A DNA stretch of 50,092 bases, from positions 1 to 50,092 of the forward strand of contig NZ_PBYA01000009.1 in NCBI RefSeq assembly GCF_002729955.1. The letters run 5' to 3'. Source of the stretch: Salinisphaera sp. (GTDB taxonomy: Bacteria; Pseudomonadota; Gammaproteobacteria; Nevskiales; Salinisphaeraceae). Position 1 is the stretch's first letter. Every line of letters starts with the position of its first letter. The notes under the pieces were generated by a model. That model had not been told where the DNA came from. It worked only from the letters and a program-made list of their open reading frames with translations, and did not search any database. The position numbers were made by a program, and so were the translations under genes. Below, piece after piece: positions 7,689-18,880 of this stretch.

Positions 7689-8736
7689 ATGGAACTAAAT
7701 GACGAAGTACAAAACATTCGCGAGAAGCTGAACAAGCAAAGAGCATCGACCGTTTCAATCGCGCTTTTCGGACAGCCGGGGGCCGGAAAATCGTCGCTGA
7801 TCAATAAGATCGTTGGAAGACAGGTCGCGGAGGTCGGCGTGGAAACTGATAAAACAACCGATGCGGCACGATATCACCACAACGGCATCGATCTAATCGA
7901 CCTGCCCGGATATGGCACCAGACAGTTTCCCCAAGAGCGGCTACGCAGAACGCTTCTCGATCATGAGCATGGATTTATTCCTGTGCGTCGTCTCCGGAAA
8001 GCTACACGAAGCGGACTCCGAGTTTTTCCGGGATCTCCAATCAAAAGGCAAGGTATGTATATTCGTATCGAATATGCGTGACCAGATGTGGGAAGAGGGC
8101 ATCCCGATTGAAGAACTGGAACAGCGTAGGACGCAGGATATTCGAAATCATGCGCAATCAGACGCGCATGTAGTGTTCACCAGCTGCCGGGATGGCGCGG
8201 GGCTGGACACTTTGGTTACGGAAATTCATAAACACTTGGATGGGGCGAAGAGAGAGCGTTGGGAGCGTGGCGCCAAGGCATACAGCGAAGAGTTTCTGAG
8301 TCGGAAAAAAGCCGCGTGTGAGAAGTATGTGGCTTACGCTGCCGTAGCGGCCGCGGCGAACGGTCTGAATCCAGTACCGGGAGCGAACGTCGCCGTTGAT
8401 TTAGCTGTCCTGACGAAACTATTTCGTGAGATCAGGAGCTGTTACGGGTTAGATAACGACCATTTGCTCGCGATGAAAGATTCGGCAATCCCTGCTATTG
8501 GCCAGGTTGCAAATAATGTCTTGAGCTACGCGACGAAAGAAGGTTCACTCCTATTACTGAAGCGATATGCGGGTCGTGAGGTGGCGCGCAACGTCACACG
8601 CTATGTTCCGTTTGTCGGCCAACTTATCGCTAGCGGCATCGGTTACGCGATCACTTCGAGCGCTGGCTTCAGTTATCTGAACGATTGCCATCAGCTCGCC
8701 GAGAGCGCATTAGAATCGCAACTGACCCCGTGCTGA
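7689..8736 (+). pseudogene. Membrane-associated P-loop GTPase (IRG/DUF697-like), +1 frameshift
   Basis: Two overlapping frames (7689-8081 and 7912-8736) encode one GTPase of about 348 residues if one C of CCCC (7929-7932) is skipped. The N-terminal frame has G1 GQPGAGKSS and G3 DLPGYGT. The second frame continues with DLFLCVVSGKLHEAD, G4-like NMRD, G5-like TSCRDGAG and a C-terminal region with LNPVPGANVAVDLAVL, the signature of DUF697/IRG-like proteins, plus hydrophobic helices suited to membrane association. The joined sequence reads naturally across the CCC-C site. Either the gene is mutated, or the run of Cs is a sequencing error or a programmed +1 site. It is followed 11 nt later by a second GTPase. 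Codons are less GC-rich than in flanking genes, suggesting transfer. Confidence 0.8.
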
Positions 8737-8747
8737 AGGTTTAGTAC

Positions 8748-9401
8748 ATGTGGTGGCTTGAACCGACAGTATCGCGGCGTGTTGGGAAATTGTTTTTCGG
8801 ATCGCTGCTGCCCTCGGCCGCGACGCCGACTACATCGAAGCCCTCGTTACTGGAAGACAATCTTGTTCGGCTCGCCCGGGAACTAGCGGTGGATCGGCGT
8901 CGCCACACGTTAGTGATAGGTCAGCCCGGTTCCGGAAAATCTTCTTTACTGAAAAATATTACAGAGGATCAGATTAGACCAAGACCGGTCATTGGAATTG
9001 AAACAGACGCTACGAACTGGTCTTTGGATCGCAACTGTAATCTGTTGAGCATCTTTGACAATGAAGTATTCGTCGACGCACCAGGGTTCGATACGCTTTC
9101 GCATCCGGTAAAGAGCTATCTGGACAAGTTCCCTTGGCGGTCGTTCTCCAGGTATGTGTTCGTGCTAAGCGGCAAAATTCGTGATGCTGACGAGGCCGTT
9201 TTCACTGTATTGAAGAGCCGGGGCGATGCGGCTCAAATTACTGTGGTGCGGTCCAAATCGGACGCTTTGACTAAGGCCGCCCGTGACGACGTTGCTGCGG
9301 ATATTGCGACGACGCTTGGTATACGAAAGCGCGAACTGGTTCTGTTGAGTAGTAGAACAGGCGATGGAATCGAAAAGCTGCGCGCGCGGCTTTTCGATTA
9401 A
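8748..9401 (+). CDS. Second P-loop GTPase of the pair
   Basis: A 217-aa GTPase with G1 GQPGSGKSSL at about residues 58-67, G3 DAPGFDT, G4 RSKSDAL (SKxD form) and G5-like SSRTGDG near the C-terminus. A hydrophobic N-terminal stretch (KLFFGSLLPSAA) may act as a membrane anchor. It lacks the DUF697-like C-terminal region of its partner, so the two proteins are not simple duplicates, though both share VLSGK/VVSGK and the GxPGxGKSS form. GAAGG lies 8 nt before the ATG and overlaps the region just after the partner's stop, so the genes are probably translated from one mRNA. Paired GTPases of this sort often assemble hetero-oligomers on membranes; a stress or anti-phage role is speculation. Confidence 0.82.
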   Translation: MWWLEPTVSRRVGKLFFGSLLPSAATPTTSKPSLLEDNLVRLARELAVDRRRHTLVIGQPGSGKSSLLKNITEDQIRPRPVIGIETDATNWSLDRNCNLLSIFDNEVFVDAPGFDTLSHPVKSYLDKFPWRSFSRYVFVLSGKIRDADEAVFTVLKSRGDAAQITVVRSKSDALTKAARDDVAADIATTLGIRKRELVLLSSRTGDGIEKLRARLFD

Positions 9402-10951: not shown

Positions 10952-13900
10952 TTACGCACTCGTGCGCATGCAAATTACGGCCAGCGCGAGCAGAAGGTGG
11001 CGGCGGTCAGCTTTCTCTAGAACGAGGTCCATACCGTATCCCGTTCTTCTCTGCATTCGCTTATGCCGGCTGAGGAGATTGAAAAGTTCCTCGGATTCTC
11101 TATCGAATAGAAGGTCGTTATCTGTAGGTTGCGAGAGCTGCTTCAGCAACCAACGTCTGAGGTCGTCGCGTTTAATACGGCACTCTGTAAGAGCCACGTC
11201 GATTTCTCTTAGTGCTGGCCCCTGATCGTGCGCCCGAGGAATACGTAAACGCGAGCGAGCTCTACGACGGCGGCCTGTCAGATAGTTCAATCGGAGCCCG
11301 CGATCATGCTCACCGAGCAAGTCTACGACCACACGGTATCGCTCGAGTGATACGCCGCAGTGGTAAGCGCCGGTCAGAGTAGCTATGCCCTCTCTAACGT
11401 ACAGAGCGACTCGACCGGCCAGTTCTGCAGTCAATGCTATGTTCGACGTTGGTATAGTAGCTGCTGGCGTTTCGTGCTTTGGCGGTTGCCGTTTATGCAG
11501 GGCGGCAGGCAACCACGCCGAATTCCATCGGCTAAGGTGCGGCGTCGTATCTGTAGCACCGCGATGCGTACGCCAGCGATCAATGTGTGTCGCAGGGTAG
11601 CCCAATAGCGCAGCTTCAGTGCCCCGCGGCAAACCGGCCCATGGTGGAACCTGAGAATGGAGCAAGGTAATGCTATGCGCATACCAGATCAGCGTGGTGC
11701 GCGGCGTCGCGTGACCCATTTGCCGGGATAGATACCGTAGCTGTAGGCAGCGTGGCACATGTCGAACGGGGTGGAGCCTCGCTGGGGCCGCGTTAAGTCC
11801 GGCTACTGGCTTTAGTGTCTGGAGCGGAGAGATCGTATGCGTCGGATGCGTTGCTAGGATCGCGGCGGTCGCATGGTTGTGGCGCGCGACATGGCTGCGA
11901 GCGTGCCGGTCCATAATACGCATGGAGGCGTGTCGCCTAAACGCGGTCGAAATCGCCCGAGCAACTGCGGGAATGCCCATGCCGGGTGCCGCCAGCAGGA
12001 GATCGCTATCGAGGTTCGAAGATCGGGCCAAACGTGGTAGCAGCGCCTGTATGCGGCTCGTGTTCTCGACGTCGATCGGTACCGACACCAGGCGGCGACT
12101 GCTCAGCGTTTTGAGGCCGCGCCGTCTGGTCGGGTGTACATGTACGGTCAGCGCTGATTGAAGATGGAGGTCGCGTCGCATGAGCCCGGCCGTTTCGCGA
12201 AGACGCAATCCGGCCGACATCTGTATTCGAATAGCTGCCTCGGCAAGTGCGGCGGTGTCGGCCGACGTATCGAGGGCCAGAGTGTCGAGTGCGGTATCCG
12301 TTGCAACAGCGAGATCGCCGACGATGGCATCGATTTCCCATTGCACGGCCACGTAACCGGGTTGGCGTGGCGTTTGCACGTCGAGACCGTCGAATACGCG
12401 TGCCAGATCGAGGTCGAACCCGACTCGTGCTAGTACCCGGGCGAAATGCGCAATCGCGGGGGCGACAACACCGATGCCGCGGCGCGTCCCGCCGGAACGT
12501 TCCTCGATAGCGATCTGGCGAAGTGCCGCTTCGAAATCGTCGCTTTCGATATCGAATATGTTCCCGGCGCCCACGTGCGTAATCAGCCGCCTGCCGATCG
12601 CCACCAGATAATCGTACGCCGTACTGTCTGCGAGTTGACGTTCGTCGCGTAGGTAGACGACAAGGGCGGCTAGCAGTGCAATCAGGCTGGTTGCGCCGAA
12701 ACGATCAGTGAGCTGCTGATGCCTATGGGCAAGCTGCGTGACGGCAACTCGCCGCTTGCTGGCGTCATTCAGATCGTGAACCAATCGGCGAAGACTACGG
12801 TATTCGTTAAGACCGGACGCACGCGCCGGGAATTGGTTGTTCTGGTTCGAATAGACGTGCGCGGGCGTGAACTCTGCCGGCGCCTGAGCACCAAACAGTG
12901 GGCATGCGCGCTCCAAGGCGAGGCCTACTGTTTGTAGCGCGCCGCGCTCCCAGGCGCTACGCGTACCCGGTAGGAATGCCTGGCGAGCAAGACCGACTAG
13001 AAGGAGGGCATCGGCCAGGACGGAACCTTTGGCCGTCGACAAAAACGGCCGGAGTTCAGGCTGTGCCCGCAGTGCCGTATCGAGTTGCGGAATAGTAGGC
13101 GGTCGAGTCCGGCAGCGCCTTTGGAACGCGATGAGGGGGACCACGTCGCCGGTGAGCAGCTGACATTCTGGAACGTCGTCAGAGCCTGGCTGTGAACTAA
13201 GCGGAACCTCCGCAATTACGCCACGTTCGAAGCCGTCGAACGTATGGAGCGGGATCGTCGGGTCCAGCAATCGTAATATTCGATCCTGGGTGGTGCCGGC
13301 GCCGTAGAGCGCTAACAACAGAACGGTCGCGGCCAACGTCGCATCCACGTCGTTTTTACCGAGCCCGCGATCGAGAGACGTCAGACAAATCTTTTCCAAT
13401 TCAAGCGACCATCTCGTCGCGTCGAGGTTTACGAGCGCTAGGGCGCTATGTGCGCGATCCGGGATATGCAGTGGTGGAACGTATGGACGCCGGAGTTGCC
13501 GGGCGCCGCCATGTCCAACTGCTGCCTTCGCGATATGGGTATTCAAGGCCTCTCGTGTGGCCTGCTGTATCGGAAGGGGCTCCTCATTTATTTCTTCAAG
13601 CAGTGTCTGGATTGCCTCGGGCGGCACTAGCCAGTCCTTATCCTTGGTCGCTTGCTCGACGCAGGCGCGTGCGAGTTCGATGCCACGTAATCGTTCTGCC
13701 TCGTCGGGCCGGATACGCGATTGCGCGCTCCGGTCGCGTCTGGCTTTCGCTAACCGCCGGTAGGCTGAAATGATCGAGTCGGCCGGTGGAGCGGCTAGGT
13801 CCGCTGGCGGATCGTAACGGGTGACGGTGCCGATGAGCTCGCACCCGAGCGCATGAAGATAAAGCTGTAGACCATCCGCAAGACGCTCAGCAAACTCGAA

Positions 13901-16240
13901 AGGCGAGTCGGGATCACATTCGTTGAATGGCGTGCCGCCGATGCTATGGCCCATCTGTAAGGCTATGTCCGATCCGGCCAGATTAAATTTAACTGCGTTG
14001 CTGGCGAAAAGGTGTCGTAGAAGAGGTAGCGGGACAGCCCATTCTGGCCACGCGGATGCGATCGCGTGCGGCGTAAGTGGTTGAGTCGCGTAGCTGCATT
14101 CCTCCCCCGTTACGGCAAACCAGAATGCCCCGTCGCCACTCAGCGCGCCTCGTACCGATGCTAGTAGTGCAACGTTTTCATGTTCGTTTTTTTCGAGCTG
14201 GCGTTGCAGGCGTTCCAGCTGGCGGACATAGCCTTCGAGCTGACGCGTGAAGAGTTCAGGGAGAACGCAGATGCGTGCGTCGAGTTCCGGTTCGGTCGTC
14301 TTGTCCGCGACCATTGCCCACGTCCATCGTGGGCCACTTTTCCTTGGCGATAGGAAATGTCGTCGAGTCATCTGCGCTATCGGCGCCGTGAAGCGGTTCG
14401 CCGTGGTCGCGCCGAACAGTATGGCCAGATAAAGACCGAGCGCTGCAACACCGTCGACCATTACCGGCAGAGGCGCTTTGCTCAATCGAACGCGCCCAGA
14501 CGTGCTTGAGACCATCGCAGAGAAAGCGATTTGAGCGCGCTCAAATCGAACTGCTGCCCGGGGCGCGCCAACCAGGATATGTGCTGAACCCACGTCCCCG
14601 CTGAGTTCGATCCCGAACGAAGTCAGGGCGTCGGAATAGATCGTGCGAAGGCGCGTTGCCGGCGTTGCGTAGTAGTGACTCGAAGCGAGCGAATGCTCGA
14701 GGGACGAACCGGCTAGCCATTGTGGTTCGCGTAGATGACCGGTCACCAGGAAAACCGCAACCGGCAGCGTGTGCATGAGACGCGTCTCGGTGAAGCGGGG
14801 TACCTCGCTACGTAGCTTGTCGCGGACTTCCGTCCAGGTATGTGCCCAGGATTCGGTTGCGCCGATCTGATCGAGTATTGCCAGGCTTTTCATGCCGGCC
14901 AGCCTGCTTAAGGCTCCGGCAAGGGGTTTGGCAAAGGGGAGGTCGAGTTCGCGAACTGGCCTGTCGAACCAGCTTTCAGGCAAGCCGCGTAATTCAGGCA
15001 ACTGTGGAATGGTCCCAGTCCAGCCAGTGTCAGTGACTCGAAGGCTTCCCTCAACGGTGGCCATGCTGTCGCCTAGATAATTCCGAATAGCGTAAATGCA
15101 TTCGTCGCGACGCCGGCCAGTCACGAGCATGAGCGCCAAGCAGATATGAGCAGCCATTTCCATCGGTGGGCACGATGAGCTCGACGAAAATCGGGCCAAG
15201 AGCCATCCCCAGACCCGTGCGCTCTCACCGCTACTGAGTACGCGGTCCGAGTCCGGCAATAGAGCTCCCTCAAGATGGTGACGAGTCAGTTGGTCGAACT
15301 CGAATATTGCTAGTTTCACCTCGCGTTTGGTCGGCAGTTCGAGAGGCTCGTCCTCCTCCTGAAAAATATCTAGCGCGAAGGCGAGCTGAAAACCTTCCAG
15401 GTCTTCAGCGGGAATTTCATTCGTTGGCGGCGCCTCGAGCTCCGGAGAGGGTGGAACGAAGGTCGGAATGCTCGTGAGACCCCCGGGAGTTACTCGTGGT
15501 AATGGCCTCCCCGGGCTTGGGGGAGATCGAGGCTTACCGGGATCGTCGGTGCTCGGCGGCTCTGGCGATGCGGACGGCGGATCTGTAGAGCTATATTTTG
15601 TAGCAAGCGCTTGGAGGGCAAATGCGGTTGCGAGCTTCGCGTCGTCCTCAAAATACGGCCTTAGCAGAGCCGTGAGGGCGGCGGATTCGATGGCCAGATG
15701 CCACCGCTCGGTGAGGATTGAAGACACCGTGCCGTCGAACGCATACGTGGGTTGGACGGTCAGAACGTCGCGTATTGTCTTGGCCGCTTCGGTTTCGTCT
15801 TGGCTCAGCGTGCGACGCGTGATTACGCGTAACAGCAACGACCGAAGAATGCCTAGCGCCTTGGGTTCGCCGCGGCGCGGTATGAATGCACCGTAGTAAT
15901 AGGATCGGCCGAGGACACCGGCCAACGGGTGGAATGAACCTTTCGCGGAACTCGGGTCACGTTGGAAGTCGACGCTGAAGGCGTGCGCGACTTGTGCTAA
16001 CTGTTCAACACGTTTGCGCTCGTGTGCGCTGTAGAAAGGGCGTAGCTCGTTCAAGCATTCACTAATCGCTTTGGAAGCGACTGCGCCTAGCGGTATGCCG
16101 CCAGAGTCCAGAACTCCGAGCGAGGGACGCGAAAGGCGGCTAATCCGAACGGCGGTCGCGCTCGAAACGATGTCGATCCGCGCTTCGAGAGCGAAAGCGG
16201 CTATACGGTCATGGAAGGCTGGTTTGGCTGAGCCCATCAT
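10952..16240 (-). CDS. Giant protein with two tyrosine-recombinase-like domains
   Basis: A single uninterrupted 1762-codon frame. The C-terminal module (about residues 1170-1525) carries the tyrosine recombinase catalytic set: Arg in GLRLRE (1344-1349), Lys in RGLKTLSSRR (1367), HVARH (1450-1454, the HxxRH box), GH in RQMGHATPRTT (1509-1510) and the candidate nucleophile Tyr1520 in LIWYAH. An earlier module (about 590-780) has matching blocks: TANRFTAP, VADKTTE, LRHLFAS and LQMGHSIGG. Its box lacks the first His, and no Tyr stands where the nucleophile should be, so it looks catalytically dead. A proline-rich linker covers about residues 218-275. Phage-type integrases are 300-450 aa; this is four times larger. 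The start lies next to a tRNA-derived site, fitting an integrase role. Confidence 0.75.
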   Translation of the reverse strand: MMGSAKPAFHDRIAAFALEARIDIVSSATAVRISRLSRPSLGVLDSGGIPLGAVASKAISECLNELRPFYSAHERKRVEQLAQVAHAFSVDFQRDPSSAKGSFHPLAGVLGRSYYYGAFIPRRGEPKALGILRSLLLRVITRRTLSQDETEAAKTIRDVLTVQPTYAFDGTVSSILTERWHLAIESAALTALLRPYFEDDAKLATAFALQALATKYSSTDPPSASPEPPSTDDPGKPRSPPSPGRPLPRVTPGGLTSIPTFVPPSPELEAPPTNEIPAEDLEGFQLAFALDIFQEEDEPLELPTKREVKLAIFEFDQLTRHHLEGALLPDSDRVLSSGESARVWGWLLARFSSSSSCPPMEMAAHICLALMLVTGRRRDECIYAIRNYLGDSMATVEGSLRVTDTGWTGTIPQLPELRGLPESWFDRPVRELDLPFAKPLAGALSRLAGMKSLAILDQIGATESWAHTWTEVRDKLRSEVPRFTETRLMHTLPVAVFLVTGHLREPQWLAGSSLEHSLASSHYYATPATRLRTIYSDALTSFGIELSGDVGSAHILVGAPRAAVRFERAQIAFSAMVSSTSGRVRLSKAPLPVMVDGVAALGLYLAILFGATTANRFTAPIAQMTRRHFLSPRKSGPRWTWAMVADKTTEPELDARICVLPELFTRQLEGYVRQLERLQRQLEKNEHENVALLASVRGALSGDGAFWFAVTGEECSYATQPLTPHAIASAWPEWAVPLPLLRHLFASNAVKFNLAGSDIALQMGHSIGGTPFNECDPDSPFEFAERLADGLQLYLHALGCELIGTVTRYDPPADLAAPPADSIISAYRRLAKARRDRSAQSRIRPDEAERLRGIELARACVEQATKDKDWLVPPEAIQTLLEEINEEPLPIQQATREALNTHIAKAAVGHGGARQLRRPYVPPLHIPDRAHSALALVNLDATRWSLELEKICLTSLDRGLGKNDVDATLAATVLLLALYGAGTTQDRILRLLDPTIPLHTFDGFERGVIAEVPLSSQPGSDDVPECQLLTGDVVPLIAFQRRCRTRPPTIPQLDTALRAQPELRPFLSTAKGSVLADALLLVGLARQAFLPGTRSAWERGALQTVGLALERACPLFGAQAPAEFTPAHVYSNQNNQFPARASGLNEYRSLRRLVHDLNDASKRRVAVTQLAHRHQQLTDRFGATSLIALLAALVVYLRDERQLADSTAYDYLVAIGRRLITHVGAGNIFDIESDDFEAALRQIAIEERSGGTRRGIGVVAPAIAHFARVLARVGFDLDLARVFDGLDVQTPRQPGYVAVQWEIDAIVGDLAVATDTALDTLALDTSADTAALAEAAIRIQMSAGLRLRETAGLMRRDLHLQSALTVHVHPTRRRGLKTLSSRRLVSVPIDVENTSRIQALLPRLARSSNLDSDLLLAAPGMGIPAVARAISTAFRRHASMRIMDRHARSHVARHNHATAAILATHPTHTISPLQTLKPVAGLNAAPARLHPVRHVPRCLQLRYLSRQMGHATPRTTLIWYAHSITLLHSQVPPWAGLPRGTEAALLGYPATHIDRWRTHRGATDTTPHLSRWNSAWLPAALHKRQPPKHETPAATIPTSNIALTAELAGRVALYVREGIATLTGAYHCGVSLERYRVVVDLLGEHDRGLRLNYLTGRRRRARSRLRIPRAHDQGPALREIDVALTECRIKRDDLRRWLLKQLSQPTDNDLLFDRESEELFNLLSRHKRMQRRTGYGMDLVLEKADRRHLLLALAVICMRTSA

Positions 16241-16408: not shown

Positions 16409-16455
16409 GGCTACGAACCGCAAGGTCGGGAGTTCGAATCTTCCCGGGCCCGCCA
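16409..16455 (+). other. Displaced 3' half of tRNA-Arg(ACG): candidate attachment site
   Basis: From the anticodon loop on, the sequence matches a tRNA-Arg(ACG): loop CTACGAA, 3' anticodon strand CCGCA, T-arm GGGAG-TTCGAAT-CTTCC, then acceptor strand CGGGCCC, discriminator G and encoded CCA (16453-16455). The 5' half is missing: the preceding bases show no acceptor strand or D-arm, and the anticodon stem pairs poorly. This is the usual trace of integration into the 3' part of a tRNA gene. The recombinase gene begins 170 bp away. The intact tRNA is not in the window. Confidence 0.8.
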
Positions 16456-16463
16456 TGCAAAGA

Positions 16464-16492
16464 AGGCTTCCCAGAAATGGGGAGCCTTTTTT
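16464..16492 (+). terminator. Rho-independent terminator after the tRNA 3' half
   Basis: AGGCTTCCC (16464-16472) pairs with GGGGAGCCT (16479-16487) around the loop AGAAAT, followed by six Ts. It is probably the original terminator of the tRNA gene. Confidence 0.85.
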
Positions 16493-16500
16493 ATTTGCAA

Positions 16501-16610
16501 CGACTCATTCGAACTCCCGACAAATAACAAGTCGTTCGACGGCTGCGCAGCAGCCGAATCGTGCAGCGTTAGCTGCACGAGCCCGAAGGGCGAGCGGCGC
16601 AGCCGCGAGT
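16501..16610. repeat. Repeat unit 1: anti-T-arm plus four micro-hairpins
   Basis: The unit starts with CGACTC and then ATTCGAACTCCCGAC (16507-16521), an exact inverted copy of the tRNA T-arm at 16425-16439. Four hairpins follow: CGGCTGC-GCA-GCAGCCG (16540-16556); TCGTGCAGC-GTTA-GCTGCACGA (16559-16580); GCCC-GAA-GGGC (16581-16591); GCGGC-GCA-GCCGC (16594-16606). The spacing between hairpins is 2 nt or less. Unit 2 has the same order of loops with different stems. Confidence 0.8.
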
Positions 16611-16629
16611 AATCTTCCCGGGCCCGCCA
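16611..16629 (+). repeat. Second copy of the tRNA 3' end
   Basis: The acceptor-side segment from AATCTTCC through CCCGGGCCCGCCA is repeated exactly, 174 bp after the first copy, and the identity runs on through TGCAA to 16634. It lacks the 5' side of the T-arm, so it is a shorter att-like copy. Confidence 0.85.
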
Positions 16630-16637
16630 TGCAAGAG

Positions 16638-16667
16638 AGGCTCTCCAGAGATGGAGAGCCTTTTTTT
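16638..16667 (+). terminator. Second terminator with compensatory stem changes
   Basis: AGGCTCTCC (16638-16646) pairs with GGAGAGCCT (16653-16661) around AGAGAT, followed by seven Ts. It sits at the same distance from the tRNA end as the first terminator; the stem bases differ from that copy, but pairing is kept. Confidence 0.85.
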
Positions 16668-16674
16668 GTGCTCA

Positions 16675-16792
16675 CGACTCATTCGAACTCCCGACAGACA
16701 ATAATAGAGGTCGACAACCGCGCGCAGCGCGGTTGAACGGGGCGGCGTCAGCCGCACCGGCCCCGAAGGGGTGAGCCGCGCAGCGGCGAATC
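16675..16792. repeat. Repeat unit 2: anti-T-arm plus four micro-hairpins
   Basis: The same layout as unit 1. The anti-T-arm copy ATTCGAACTCCCGAC is at 16681-16695. The hairpins are AACCGCGC-GCA-GCGCGGTT (16716-16734), GCGGC-GTCA-GCCGC (16742-16755), CCCC-GAA-GGGG (16761-16771) and GCCGC-GCA-GCGGC (16775-16787). The loop order is GCA, GTCA, GAA, GCA, against GCA, GTTA, GAA, GCA in unit 1. The stems have largely different sequences but still pair. Confidence 0.8.
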
Positions 16793-16813
16793 ATCTTCCC
16801 GGGCCCGCCATGC
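16793..16813 (+). repeat. Third copy of the tRNA 3' end
   Basis: ATCTTCC through CCCGGGCCCGCCATGC occurs a third time, 181 bp after the second copy. No terminator follows it. This marks the probable right edge of the accessory region; ordinary chromosome begins by 17027. Confidence 0.8.
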
Positions 16814-17026: not shown

Positions 17027-18880
17027 ATGGGTAAGAAGGCATTCATGGCCGGGTGGGCGCTTGTTCTGTGTTTCGCCATGGCCGGATGCGGCGATGGCAG
17101 TGACGGTTCTGTCGACGTAGCGAGCTCTGGCGAGGCCGTCGACGACGGCGGTGGTGAGCCCGCCACACCCGCCGCGCTGTTCTGCGACGAGAACGCCCCA
17201 GCGCTTGAGGCCGGGCGCGTCGATGCGGTCACGCAATCGACCGATATCGATGGCACGACGATCGATGTCGCTATGACGTTGTACACGCCGGCGCTCGACA
17301 AAGGCGAGTGCGCGCCGCTGATTGTTCACAGCCACGGTTTTGGCGGCAGCCGTATTACCGATCTCGACGACGTGGCGGACGACGCCAACGCCTCTGACCT
17401 GGCCACTCGCCAGGCGTGGGAATCGGGCTATTTCGTGGTGAGTTTCGACCAGCGTGGATTCGGCGAAACGGGCGGCCGCGTGATGGTCGAAAATCCCGAC
17501 TTCGAAGGCCGCGACACGACTGCGGTTATCGACTATGCGATCGAACGAATCGGTGGCCATTTGGCCTATCGTCGCGGTGACCCCGTGCTGGGCGCGCTCG
17601 GCCTGTCCTATGGCGGTGGTTATCAGCTGGTGGGTGCCGGTGTGGACCCGCGCATCGACGCCATCGTGCCGGCGGCCACCTGGCATGATCTGACCTACAG
17701 TCTGGCGCCGAACGACGCGCCCAAGACCGTCTGGCTCGATCTACTGGTCCTGCTCGGCGTGACCGGGGCCGAAGGCGCGCTCGATCCGTTTCTCTACGAG
17801 GGATTTCTGCAAGCACAGTTCGGCGAGATTTCCGACGATATTCTTGCCGAGGTCGAAGGGAACGGGCTGAATGCCTTCTGCGACGGGCTACGCCCAAGCG
17901 AAGGCGTACCGCGTGTTGATGCGTTCTTTGTACAGGGCGTGAACGATACGCTGTTCAACATGAACGAGGCCGTGCGCAACGCCCAGTGCCTGCGCGCAGC
18001 CGGCAACGACGTACGCCTGCTCATCCAGCGTACCGGCCATATCCTGCCGCTTTTCCAGGCCGTGCAGGGCGCCTTCGGCTTCGATTTGGACCCGCGTGTC
18101 GTCTGCGGCAATGCCACCTATGCCACCTCGGAACGCATGCTCAGCTTCCTGAATGAGAAGCTGCGCGGTATCGAAGCGAAGCCGCCGATCGACGCCAACT
18201 GTTTCGTTCAGGACGACACGCACGGCGTCGTGACCGACGATATCCCGATCGGCGGGCAGCGCTACACCATCCCATCGACCACGCTATCCACCGGCCCGGT
18301 GGTGGAAACCGTGGTCAATGTACTCCAGGGGCTGCAGATCAACGGCAGCCCGCTGCTGCCGACCGTGCTCGAATCGCTGGGCATGACGGTGACCAACCTG
18401 CTGGATACGCTCGAAGCATTGGTGACCAACCCGAGCGAACTCGACAGCGTGCTGACCAACGAGGTGCTGCAGCTGCTACCGCCGGAACTGCTCAACGAGC
18501 TCACCGCGCCGTCGCGGGAACTGTTTCTGTTCACCGCGGAACGGCCTATGACGCTGGCGGGTATCCCCATGGCCGACTTGACGGTCGAGAGTGCGGCGGA
18601 TGCTCCCATCGTGTTCGTCGGGCTGGGGCTCAAACGTCAGGGCGAAACGCGGATTGATCTGATCAATACACAGATCACCCCGTTGAGCGGGCACGCCGAC
18701 GGGGTTTATCAGCAGCCCCTCGTCGGCGTATCGACGCGGCTCGATCCCGGCGACGAGGTGTATCTGATGGTCTACGGCTTTCATAACCAGTACTACCTCA
18801 GCTTCAACCGGCTGCCGCGCGTGGTGACGCTTTCGGGCAGCGTGGACCTGCCGTTGCTGCCAGACTCGATACGCCCGTAA
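17027..18880 (+). CDS. Secreted lipoprotein alpha/beta hydrolase (S15/CocE-like)
   Basis: A 617-aa lipoprotein with the lipobox FAMAGC at about residues 17-22 and a Gly/Asp-rich tether after it. The catalytic domain shows SHGFGGSR (oxyanion region), FDQRGFGETGG and the nucleophile elbow GLSYGGG. An acid region (FVQGVNDTLFN) and a His (RTGHILPL) follow, as in X-Pro dipeptidyl-peptidase and CocE/NonD-type hydrolases. The C-terminal part (about 420-617) is predicted beta-rich and may be a substrate-binding jelly roll. A peptide or ester substrate is likely; which is unknown. GGGGAGGG lies a few nt before the ATG. It is the first ordinary chromosomal gene right of the tRNA-derived repeats, read away from them. 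Confidence 0.85.
   Translation: MGKKAFMAGWALVLCFAMAGCGDGSDGSVDVASSGEAVDDGGGEPATPAALFCDENAPALEAGRVDAVTQSTDIDGTTIDVAMTLYTPALDKGECAPLIVHSHGFGGSRITDLDDVADDANASDLATRQAWESGYFVVSFDQRGFGETGGRVMVENPDFEGRDTTAVIDYAIERIGGHLAYRRGDPVLGALGLSYGGGYQLVGAGVDPRIDAIVPAATWHDLTYSLAPNDAPKTVWLDLLVLLGVTGAEGALDPFLYEGFLQAQFGEISDDILAEVEGNGLNAFCDGLRPSEGVPRVDAFFVQGVNDTLFNMNEAVRNAQCLRAAGNDVRLLIQRTGHILPLFQAVQGAFGFDLDPRVVCGNATYATSERMLSFLNEKLRGIEAKPPIDANCFVQDDTHGVVTDDIPIGGQRYTIPSTTLSTGPVVETVVNVLQGLQINGSPLLPTVLESLGMTVTNLLDTLEALVTNPSELDSVLTNEVLQLLPPELLNELTAPSRELFLFTAERPMTLAGIPMADLTVESAADAPIVFVGLGLKRQGETRIDLINTQITPLSGHADGVYQQPLVGVSTRLDPGDEVYLMVYGFHNQYYLSFNRLPRVVTLSGSVDLPLLPDSIRP

Follow-up and report, generated by a model that had tools for sequence, protein, structure and literature searches.

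Tandem hairpin units at a tRNA-Arg end in Salinisphaera: probable divergent members of the RtT family and a possible role as folded DNA

What are the two tandem units that follow a tRNA-Arg end in a Salinisphaera genome, and does selection act on their hairpins as RNA or as DNA? The window, by which we mean the whole stretch of 50,092 nucleotides analysed here (contig NZ_PBYA01000009.1, forward strand), holds the two units within positions 16409-16813, with start-to-start spacings of 174 and 181 (Table 1). Each contains a terminator-like hairpin, an inverted T-arm, four hairpins (H1 to H4) and a copy of the tRNA 3' end, and in both units the loops follow the order GCA, GTYA, GAA, GCA. Sequence and repeat analysis thus agree with the earlier note on this DNA, which had described three tRNA-Arg 3' ends and two units built on one plan. 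The same note had held that the stems differ between the units and that all of them pair. The stems do differ, with both arms changing together, but pairing is not complete, H2 of unit 2 containing a G.A mismatch. Unit 2 also has GGTCGAC where most units have GGTTCGAC.

Table 1. Features of the tRNA-Arg locus and of the adjoining island gene (window coordinates)
Feature	Position	Strand	Basis
Apparently displaced tRNA-Arg(ACG) 3' part, anticodon loop to CCA (47 nt); probable island attachment-site copy	16409-16455	+	identity to intact gene; sister locus L091
Unit 1 terminator-like hairpin with T run	16463-16492	+	sequence
Unit 1 inverted tRNA-Arg T-arm copy (5' strand and loop)	16507-16521	+	15/15 complementary; family-wide test
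Unit 1 hairpin cassette	16532-16614	+	model R1, E 4.1e-17 (unit 1 itself in model)
Unit 1 H1, loop GCA	16540-16556	+	sequence
Unit 1 H2, loop GTTA	16560-16579	+	sequence
Unit 1 H3, loop GAA	16581-16591	+	sequence
Unit 1 H4, loop GCA	16594-16606	+	sequence
Unit 1 closing tRNA-Arg 3' end copy	16612-16629	+	sequence repeats
Unit 2 terminator-like hairpin with T run	16634-16666	+	sequence repeats
Unit 2 inverted T-arm copy	16681-16695	+	15 nt, fully complementary
Unit 2 hairpin cassette	16707-16795	+	model R1, E 1.5e-17 (unit 2 itself in model)
Unit 2 H1, loop GCA	16715-16735	+	sequence
Unit 2 H2, loop GTCA, single G.A mismatch	16738-16759	+	sequence
Unit 2 H3, loop GAA, terminal G.T pair	16760-16772	+	sequence
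Unit 2 H4, loop GCA	16775-16787	+	sequence
Unit 2 closing tRNA-Arg 3' end copy	16793-16810	+	sequence repeats
1762-aa ORF, island gene beside the attachment site, outside the units	10952-16240	-	weak phage-integrase match

The first tRNA-Arg end and the neighbouring island

The possibility that the first tRNA-Arg end is itself part of a unit was rejected on two grounds. Positions 16409-16456 match the intact tRNA-Arg(acg) gene at C32:90297 of the same genome without a difference over 48 bp, and in the sister genome G004 (locus L091) a tRNA-Ser/tRNA-Arg(acg) pair, two units and a hydrolase gene are all contiguous. The second L091 unit is a weak match (21.4 bits) to the covariance model introduced below. 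The hydrolase is the counterpart of window positions 17027-18880 (83% identity over 181 aa). On C32, the sequence that precedes the tRNAs matches L091 at 90% over 959 bp. No unit is found in the approximately 150 nt read 3' of the intact tRNA-Arg(ACG) on C32. Given the 48-bp repeat and the contiguity in L091, it is most likely that a genomic island entered tRNA-Arg and parted the tRNA from its units, and the first end in the window appears to be the displaced 3' half of tRNA-Arg(ACG) that this island left behind. Because C32 and C9 are separate contigs, we infer the extent of the island and its other end.

The tRNA 3' half in the window resembles the attachment copy of a tRNA-integrated island or prophage, whereas the units themselves differ from such elements in being gene-free and lying outside the island. 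The 1762-aa ORF matches PF00589 at residues 1329-1470 (E 3.2e-05; 24.2 bits, under the curated cut-off of 27.1) and has no NCBIfam or PADLOC match at E 0.01; its length is unusual for an integrase. ORFs at 7912-9401, inside the island, weakly match GTPases of the Era/YsxC/EngA type, all under curated cut-offs, and their matches in PADLOC are likewise only weak.

A family at tRNA and tmRNA ends and its relation to RtT

Covariance model R1, built from seven units of the source genome, has 13 matches there (E 2e-19 to 5e-6; three further matches at E 0.05-0.9 were left out of the count). Genome searches, which scored a limited number of candidates per genome, gave matches in 27 of 41 genomes, the source genome included (E up to 0.01), in 38 of 143 genomes of the class (E up to 1e-4) and, for a draw from the phylum, in 18 of 120 genomes, 13 of the 18 belonging to one family outside the class. 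The earlier note had suggested such a search of the source genome and its relatives, naming an absence of copies or unpaired stems as evidence against a paired family at tRNA 3' ends; further copies were found, their stems pair, and the proposed family stands.

A pattern scan of contigs, which required GTTCGAC, CCCGAAGGG and TAATCC, returned at least 119 stretches, with Thioalkalivibrio, Marinobacter, Idiomarina, Alteromonas and Enterobacteriaceae among the matches listed; motif counts on this sample are biased since the scan required those motifs. When 98 of the 119 listed stretches (L133-L230) were searched with the model, 87 matched, with 119 matches in total; the non-gammaproteobacterial records L155, L157, L163 and L187 are among the 11 of 98 that did not. 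L167, a MAG named Auribacterota, matches at 38.4 bits and may be mis-binned. After removal of the matches in L161, L169 and L190 (contigs matching genomes G005, G006 and G010) and of identical units, 260 units were left. A same-strand tRNA lies upstream within 1200 nt of 215 of these and within 130 nt of 149. The 20 validation loci are high-scoring matches from the class and phylum searches, chosen by rank and not at random. The sequences are related, and counts from them are therefore not independent.

Placement was counted for same-strand tRNAs only. In a set of 86 loci, a tRNA ends 31-91 nt before the first cassette in 70; the remainder comprise one locus with a tRNA at a distance of 356 nt and 15 without any, of which six lie about 135 bp or less from a contig end. 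In a wider set of 87 loci drawn from the listed scan matches, 66 lie no more than 130 nt from a tRNA (Tyr, Ser, Arg, Gln, Lys, Glu, Val or Met) and 21 have no near tRNA. Eighteen of the 20 loci fetched later are within 88 nt of a tRNA or tmRNA 3' end, L253 is at 157 nt, and L259 lies inside a split tRNA copy; at L268 and L270 it is tmRNA that stands directly 5' of RtT-type units. For the window locus, placement behind a tRNA is shown through sister locus L091. Within the genus, units accompany tRNAs for Arg (five anticodons), Gln (two) and Tyr. Overall, the earlier note's question of copies at other tRNA 3' ends is answered by units at Arg, Gln, Tyr, Ser, Lys, Thr, Glu, others and tmRNA. Units are single or tandem, in 1 to 5 copies, and their carriage at shared loci throughout the genus looks like vertical inheritance. 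At the orthologous Arg(acg) site of G001 (L281), no unit is present in the 330 nt read behind the tRNA, which could be a loss; by eye, a terminator-like hairpin stands there at the same place as the first one in the window.

A viral scan yielded 3 stretches with the strict pattern and 55 with a looser one, and within the 55, five contigs hold 9 model matches. Of four viral-scan loci read by eye, L286, L333 and L310 have a partial tRNA end before the units and L284 a whole tRNA-Thr. At L286:9800-10850, a phage-like region ends at a partial tRNA-Ser; behind this stand four units, arranged A, B, A, C, of which the first and third are alike by eye. A plasmid search gave mixed matches, some of them in chromosome-sized records, and was left out of the evidence.

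RtT was first found behind an E. coli tRNA gene, and its repeats in E. coli are about 175-180 bp long. The layout of the window units is that of RtT (Rfam RF00391), so that the earlier note's statement that no element with this layout had been described does not hold. The repeats at E. coli tyrT and the window units share this length with an included tRNA 3' end, the order of hairpins and the core motifs. They differ in that the window units score under the cut-off, stand at tRNA-Arg and have a terminator-like hairpin and an inverted Arg T-arm, and in that the family seen here spans many tRNAs and tmRNA. The RtT model gives 57-129 bits on enterobacterial units. In a search of 431 bases, it gives 23.5 bits on unit 1 (16504-16629, E 0.024) and 15.9 bits on unit 2 (16677-16810, E 1.9), both aligning across model positions 1-130, with the order of elements conserved as read in the alignment of unit 1. 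No RtT match in the window reaches the gathering cut-off (45 bits), and unit 2 has none at E up to 1 in the genome-wide search. The model nevertheless matches 10 of 14 genomes (the source genome and 13 relatives; E up to 1), other units pass the cut-off in 5 of the 14, with up to 65.9 bits, and the Tyr unit of the source genome scores 44.6 bits. Judged by sequence, the window units are distant, divergent members of RtT, an assignment made because of this chain of related units and not because of their own scores.

Another Rfam family, the Aggregatibacter sRNA AaHKsRNA22 (RF02902), has a like order of hairpins and scores 23.8 bits on unit 2, above RtT there, but under its own cut-off of 39.8. 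The top Rfam match, ctRNA_p42d on the terminator-like hairpin (28.1 bits versus a cut-off of 50), was taken as chance. Of 5426 E. coli genomes, 5252 have a match to a 220-base enterobacterial stretch, and in 92 the match spans at least 80% of it.

RtT was reported in 1991, as cited in later papers, and two Salmonella genomes are reported to differ by a 175 bp rtT repeat (PMC2658671). RtT is also reported to be expressed in other genera: in A. pleuropneumoniae it adjoins Asn and Lys tRNAs and is visible on Northern blots (PMC4986893), and in Thioalkalivibrio it is induced by cold (PMC8092127). These reports favour RtT RNA as the functional product, as do a tandem G.A motif reported for RtT (PMC7657543), the RtT sRNA annotation carried by the 8 E. 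coli matches listed, and the location of the counted units on the tRNA strand. Such an RNA would be co-transcribed with the tRNA, freed by tRNA-processing enzymes at its tRNA-like 3' end and active as a small RNA in processes such as the stringent or cold response. We regard this reading as a serious possibility, although not the one that we prefer.

Junctions, tRNA ends and covarying stems

The cassette has a median length of 86 nt (260 units), and a copy of the tRNA 3' end comes after it. Both tRNA-derived parts correspond to the tRNA of their own locus: tails match it at 17 or more of 20 positions in 144 of 215 units versus 39 of 1075 draws of other tRNAs, and the spacer contains an inverted copy of its 3' half (score at least 14) in 139 of 215 units versus 76 of 2150 draws. 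At the Arg loci, the inverted T-arm is mostly kept complementary across Salinisphaera species while the flanks diverge. The idea that the inverted and direct tRNA ends always close into a stem was rejected, because the stem that would join them scores 8.27 of 12, little better than the control (7.86).

The junction is clearest at L259:1240-1960, where three whole tRNA-Gln copies in tandem each carry the cassette within the T-loop, with GGTTCGA before it and ATCC after it. The split copies are 213 bp apart and alike by eye, and an intact tRNA-Gln comes next. Other units have the same junction motifs as L259, GTTCGA marking the left boundary in 228 of 260 cassettes in a sample selected in part by that motif. 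At L008:1784-1873, an odd second tRNA-Gln(ttg)-like gene of 90 nt adjoins a normal one and is perhaps a pseudogene with an insertion. The portions of the literature retrieved in our search describe neither the T-loop split nor the locus-matched inverted ends nor the DNA-type loops. What may be new here is the family-wide anatomy, the family itself being already known as RtT.

Integron attC sites, the ends of IS200/IS605 and REP elements act via folded single-stranded DNA or palindromes, and the units may be compared with them by analogy. In a REP-like reading, the unit would be a DNA element that follows heavily transcribed genes and either takes up supercoils or serves as a binding site for topoisomerase or a nucleoid protein. 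GC-rich palindromes 3' of highly expressed genes fit this idea, and some BIME-related attenuators are reported to resemble rtT (PMC2965389). However, such an element would not need the fixed orientation and the fixed T-loop join of the loci read, and we consider it improbable.

The tRNA ends could also have been duplicated passively in tandem around old palindromes, which template switching would then keep palindromic, without any function. A copy number ranging from 1 to 5 and the decay of some tails are compatible with this, and so is L086 (genome G003, tRNA-Arg tct), in which the tRNA's own T-arm replaces H4 of a unit, a sign of recombination between unit and tRNA. Yet the loops are strand-specific and the core motifs constant over many families, which speaks against it. 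Passive duplication is the least probable of the explanations considered.

Covariation of the stems is extensive. An alignment of 143 distinct sequences contains 659 cells in which both sides differ yet pairing is kept; shuffles give 196 on average, and slid partners no more than 91. In 117 wider sequences, the count is 612 versus 186. Both alignments were fitted to the model. The earlier note's observation that both strands of the stems have changed together is hence upheld far beyond the two units on which it was made. A count made without these alignments considered only hairpins that have a GNA or GNNA loop and at least 4 Watson-Crick pairs out of 6; of their 1029 internal pairs, 971 are Watson-Crick. 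The internal mismatches of the arrays are G.T in 11 cases, A.C in 9 and others in 38, whereas those of tRNA stems are G.T in 47, A.C in 4 and others in 3 (G.T:A.C in arrays versus tRNAs, Fisher p 0.0008). Unit stems thus covary but, unlike tRNA stems, tolerate G.T no better than A.C. In the model-fitted alignments, G.T makes up 1.8-2.0% of pairs versus 2.9% in tRNAs, with 10-14% in H3. Between units of one locus (39 comparisons), there are 13 double Watson-Crick changes, 5 other double changes, 16 single changes with G.T and 61 single broken changes, the last number being inflated by the pooling of two predicted folds. The idea that paired changes arise at once by copying of one arm was rejected, as single changes also occur within loci.

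Selection on RNA or on DNA

The d(cGNNAg) form is a stable DNA tetraloop, and RNA hairpin loops prefer GNRA and UNCG. In the arrays, 346 of 603 triloops are c(GNA)g, versus 53 of 1896 other hairpins and none of 23 terminator triloops at the same loci; only 3 of the 603 are of the complementary type, a strand bias for which template switching alone gives no reason. GNA loops are reported to form very stable DNA mini-hairpins (Yoshizawa 1997, via PMC6479982). Among 257 tetraloops, 88 are c(GNNA)g, with a pyrimidine at the third base in 53 and a purine in 35 (p 0.07). UNCG occurs once, and array tetraloops display no preference for GNRA or UNCG, which, together with the lack of any sign of wobble tolerance in the internal pairs, speaks against RtT RNA as the functional product. 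The terminator control did not show the expected RNA loop types either (55 tetraloops; cGNRAg 1, UNCG 2) and therefore gives no proof that RNA hairpins here would look different, so that the loop evidence for selection at the DNA level is suggestive.

Between tRNA and cassette, the terminator finder reports a terminator in 64 of 149 arrays, among them all 13 at Ser(gga) and all 14 at Gln(ctg). The finder also responds on the opposite strand (45 of 149 in this control), and many of these terminators must therefore be two-way palindromes or false. In the other 85 arrays, among them 25 of 25 at Tyr and 16 of 16 at Gln(ttg), no terminator was detected, which suits an RNA co-transcribed with the tRNA. 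On the other hand, motif hairpins are equally many with a terminator in front (2.25 per array, n=64) and without one (2.27, n=85; p 0.77), which does not. Considering the loop types, the absent wobble tolerance and the equal numbers of motif hairpins with and without terminators, we lean towards selection on DNA.

Our tentative preference, over a purely RNA function, is for a folded-DNA cassette that is copied between tRNA ends. The species that matters would be the tRNA-sense strand in single-stranded form, as exposed at replication forks or in R-loops; its c(GNA)g and c(GNNA)g mini-hairpins may form a compact substrate. A putative recombination activity would copy the cassette between tRNA and tmRNA ends via their shared T-loop sequence, tandem copies may result from recombination between the repeated tRNA ends, and RtT RNA would be a by-product where the unit is co-transcribed with the tRNA. 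Orthologous sites with units (L091) and without one (L281) fit the proposal. Against it stand the reported expression of RtT RNA, the apparently vertical carriage within the genus, the possibility that L281 is a loss, the single changes within loci and the relatedness of the sequences. No enzyme for it was found: no candidate for a Y1 transposase appears in genomes G027 and G037, which have 9 and 8 model matches. All 14 genomes of the genus carry a Y1 transposase; outside the genus, it occurs in 8 of 13 genomes that have arrays and in 5 of 14 that have none. Owing to this inconsistent presence, and to the lack of a candidate in G027 and G037, a requirement for Y1 transposase, as for an element of the IS200/IS605 type, was rejected.

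In its most extended form, the proposal would be that RtT is not primarily an RNA gene. It would be a DNA cassette, devoid of genes, whose single strand folds with extra-stable c(GNA)g mini-hairpins. By splitting the T-loops of copied tRNA and tmRNA genes, it would have spread in Gammaproteobacteria and in at least one family beyond them, the locus-matched inverted and direct tRNA ends being made during insertion. Taken as a whole, this is possible but rather unlikely. The available parts of the literature give no settled function for RtT. Should selection act on its structure as DNA, the sRNA annotations of RtT would name the wrong molecule, and a widespread cassette of tRNA ends, together with the enzyme that processes it, would remain to be found. 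Family-wide alignments make the question of RNA or DNA directly testable.
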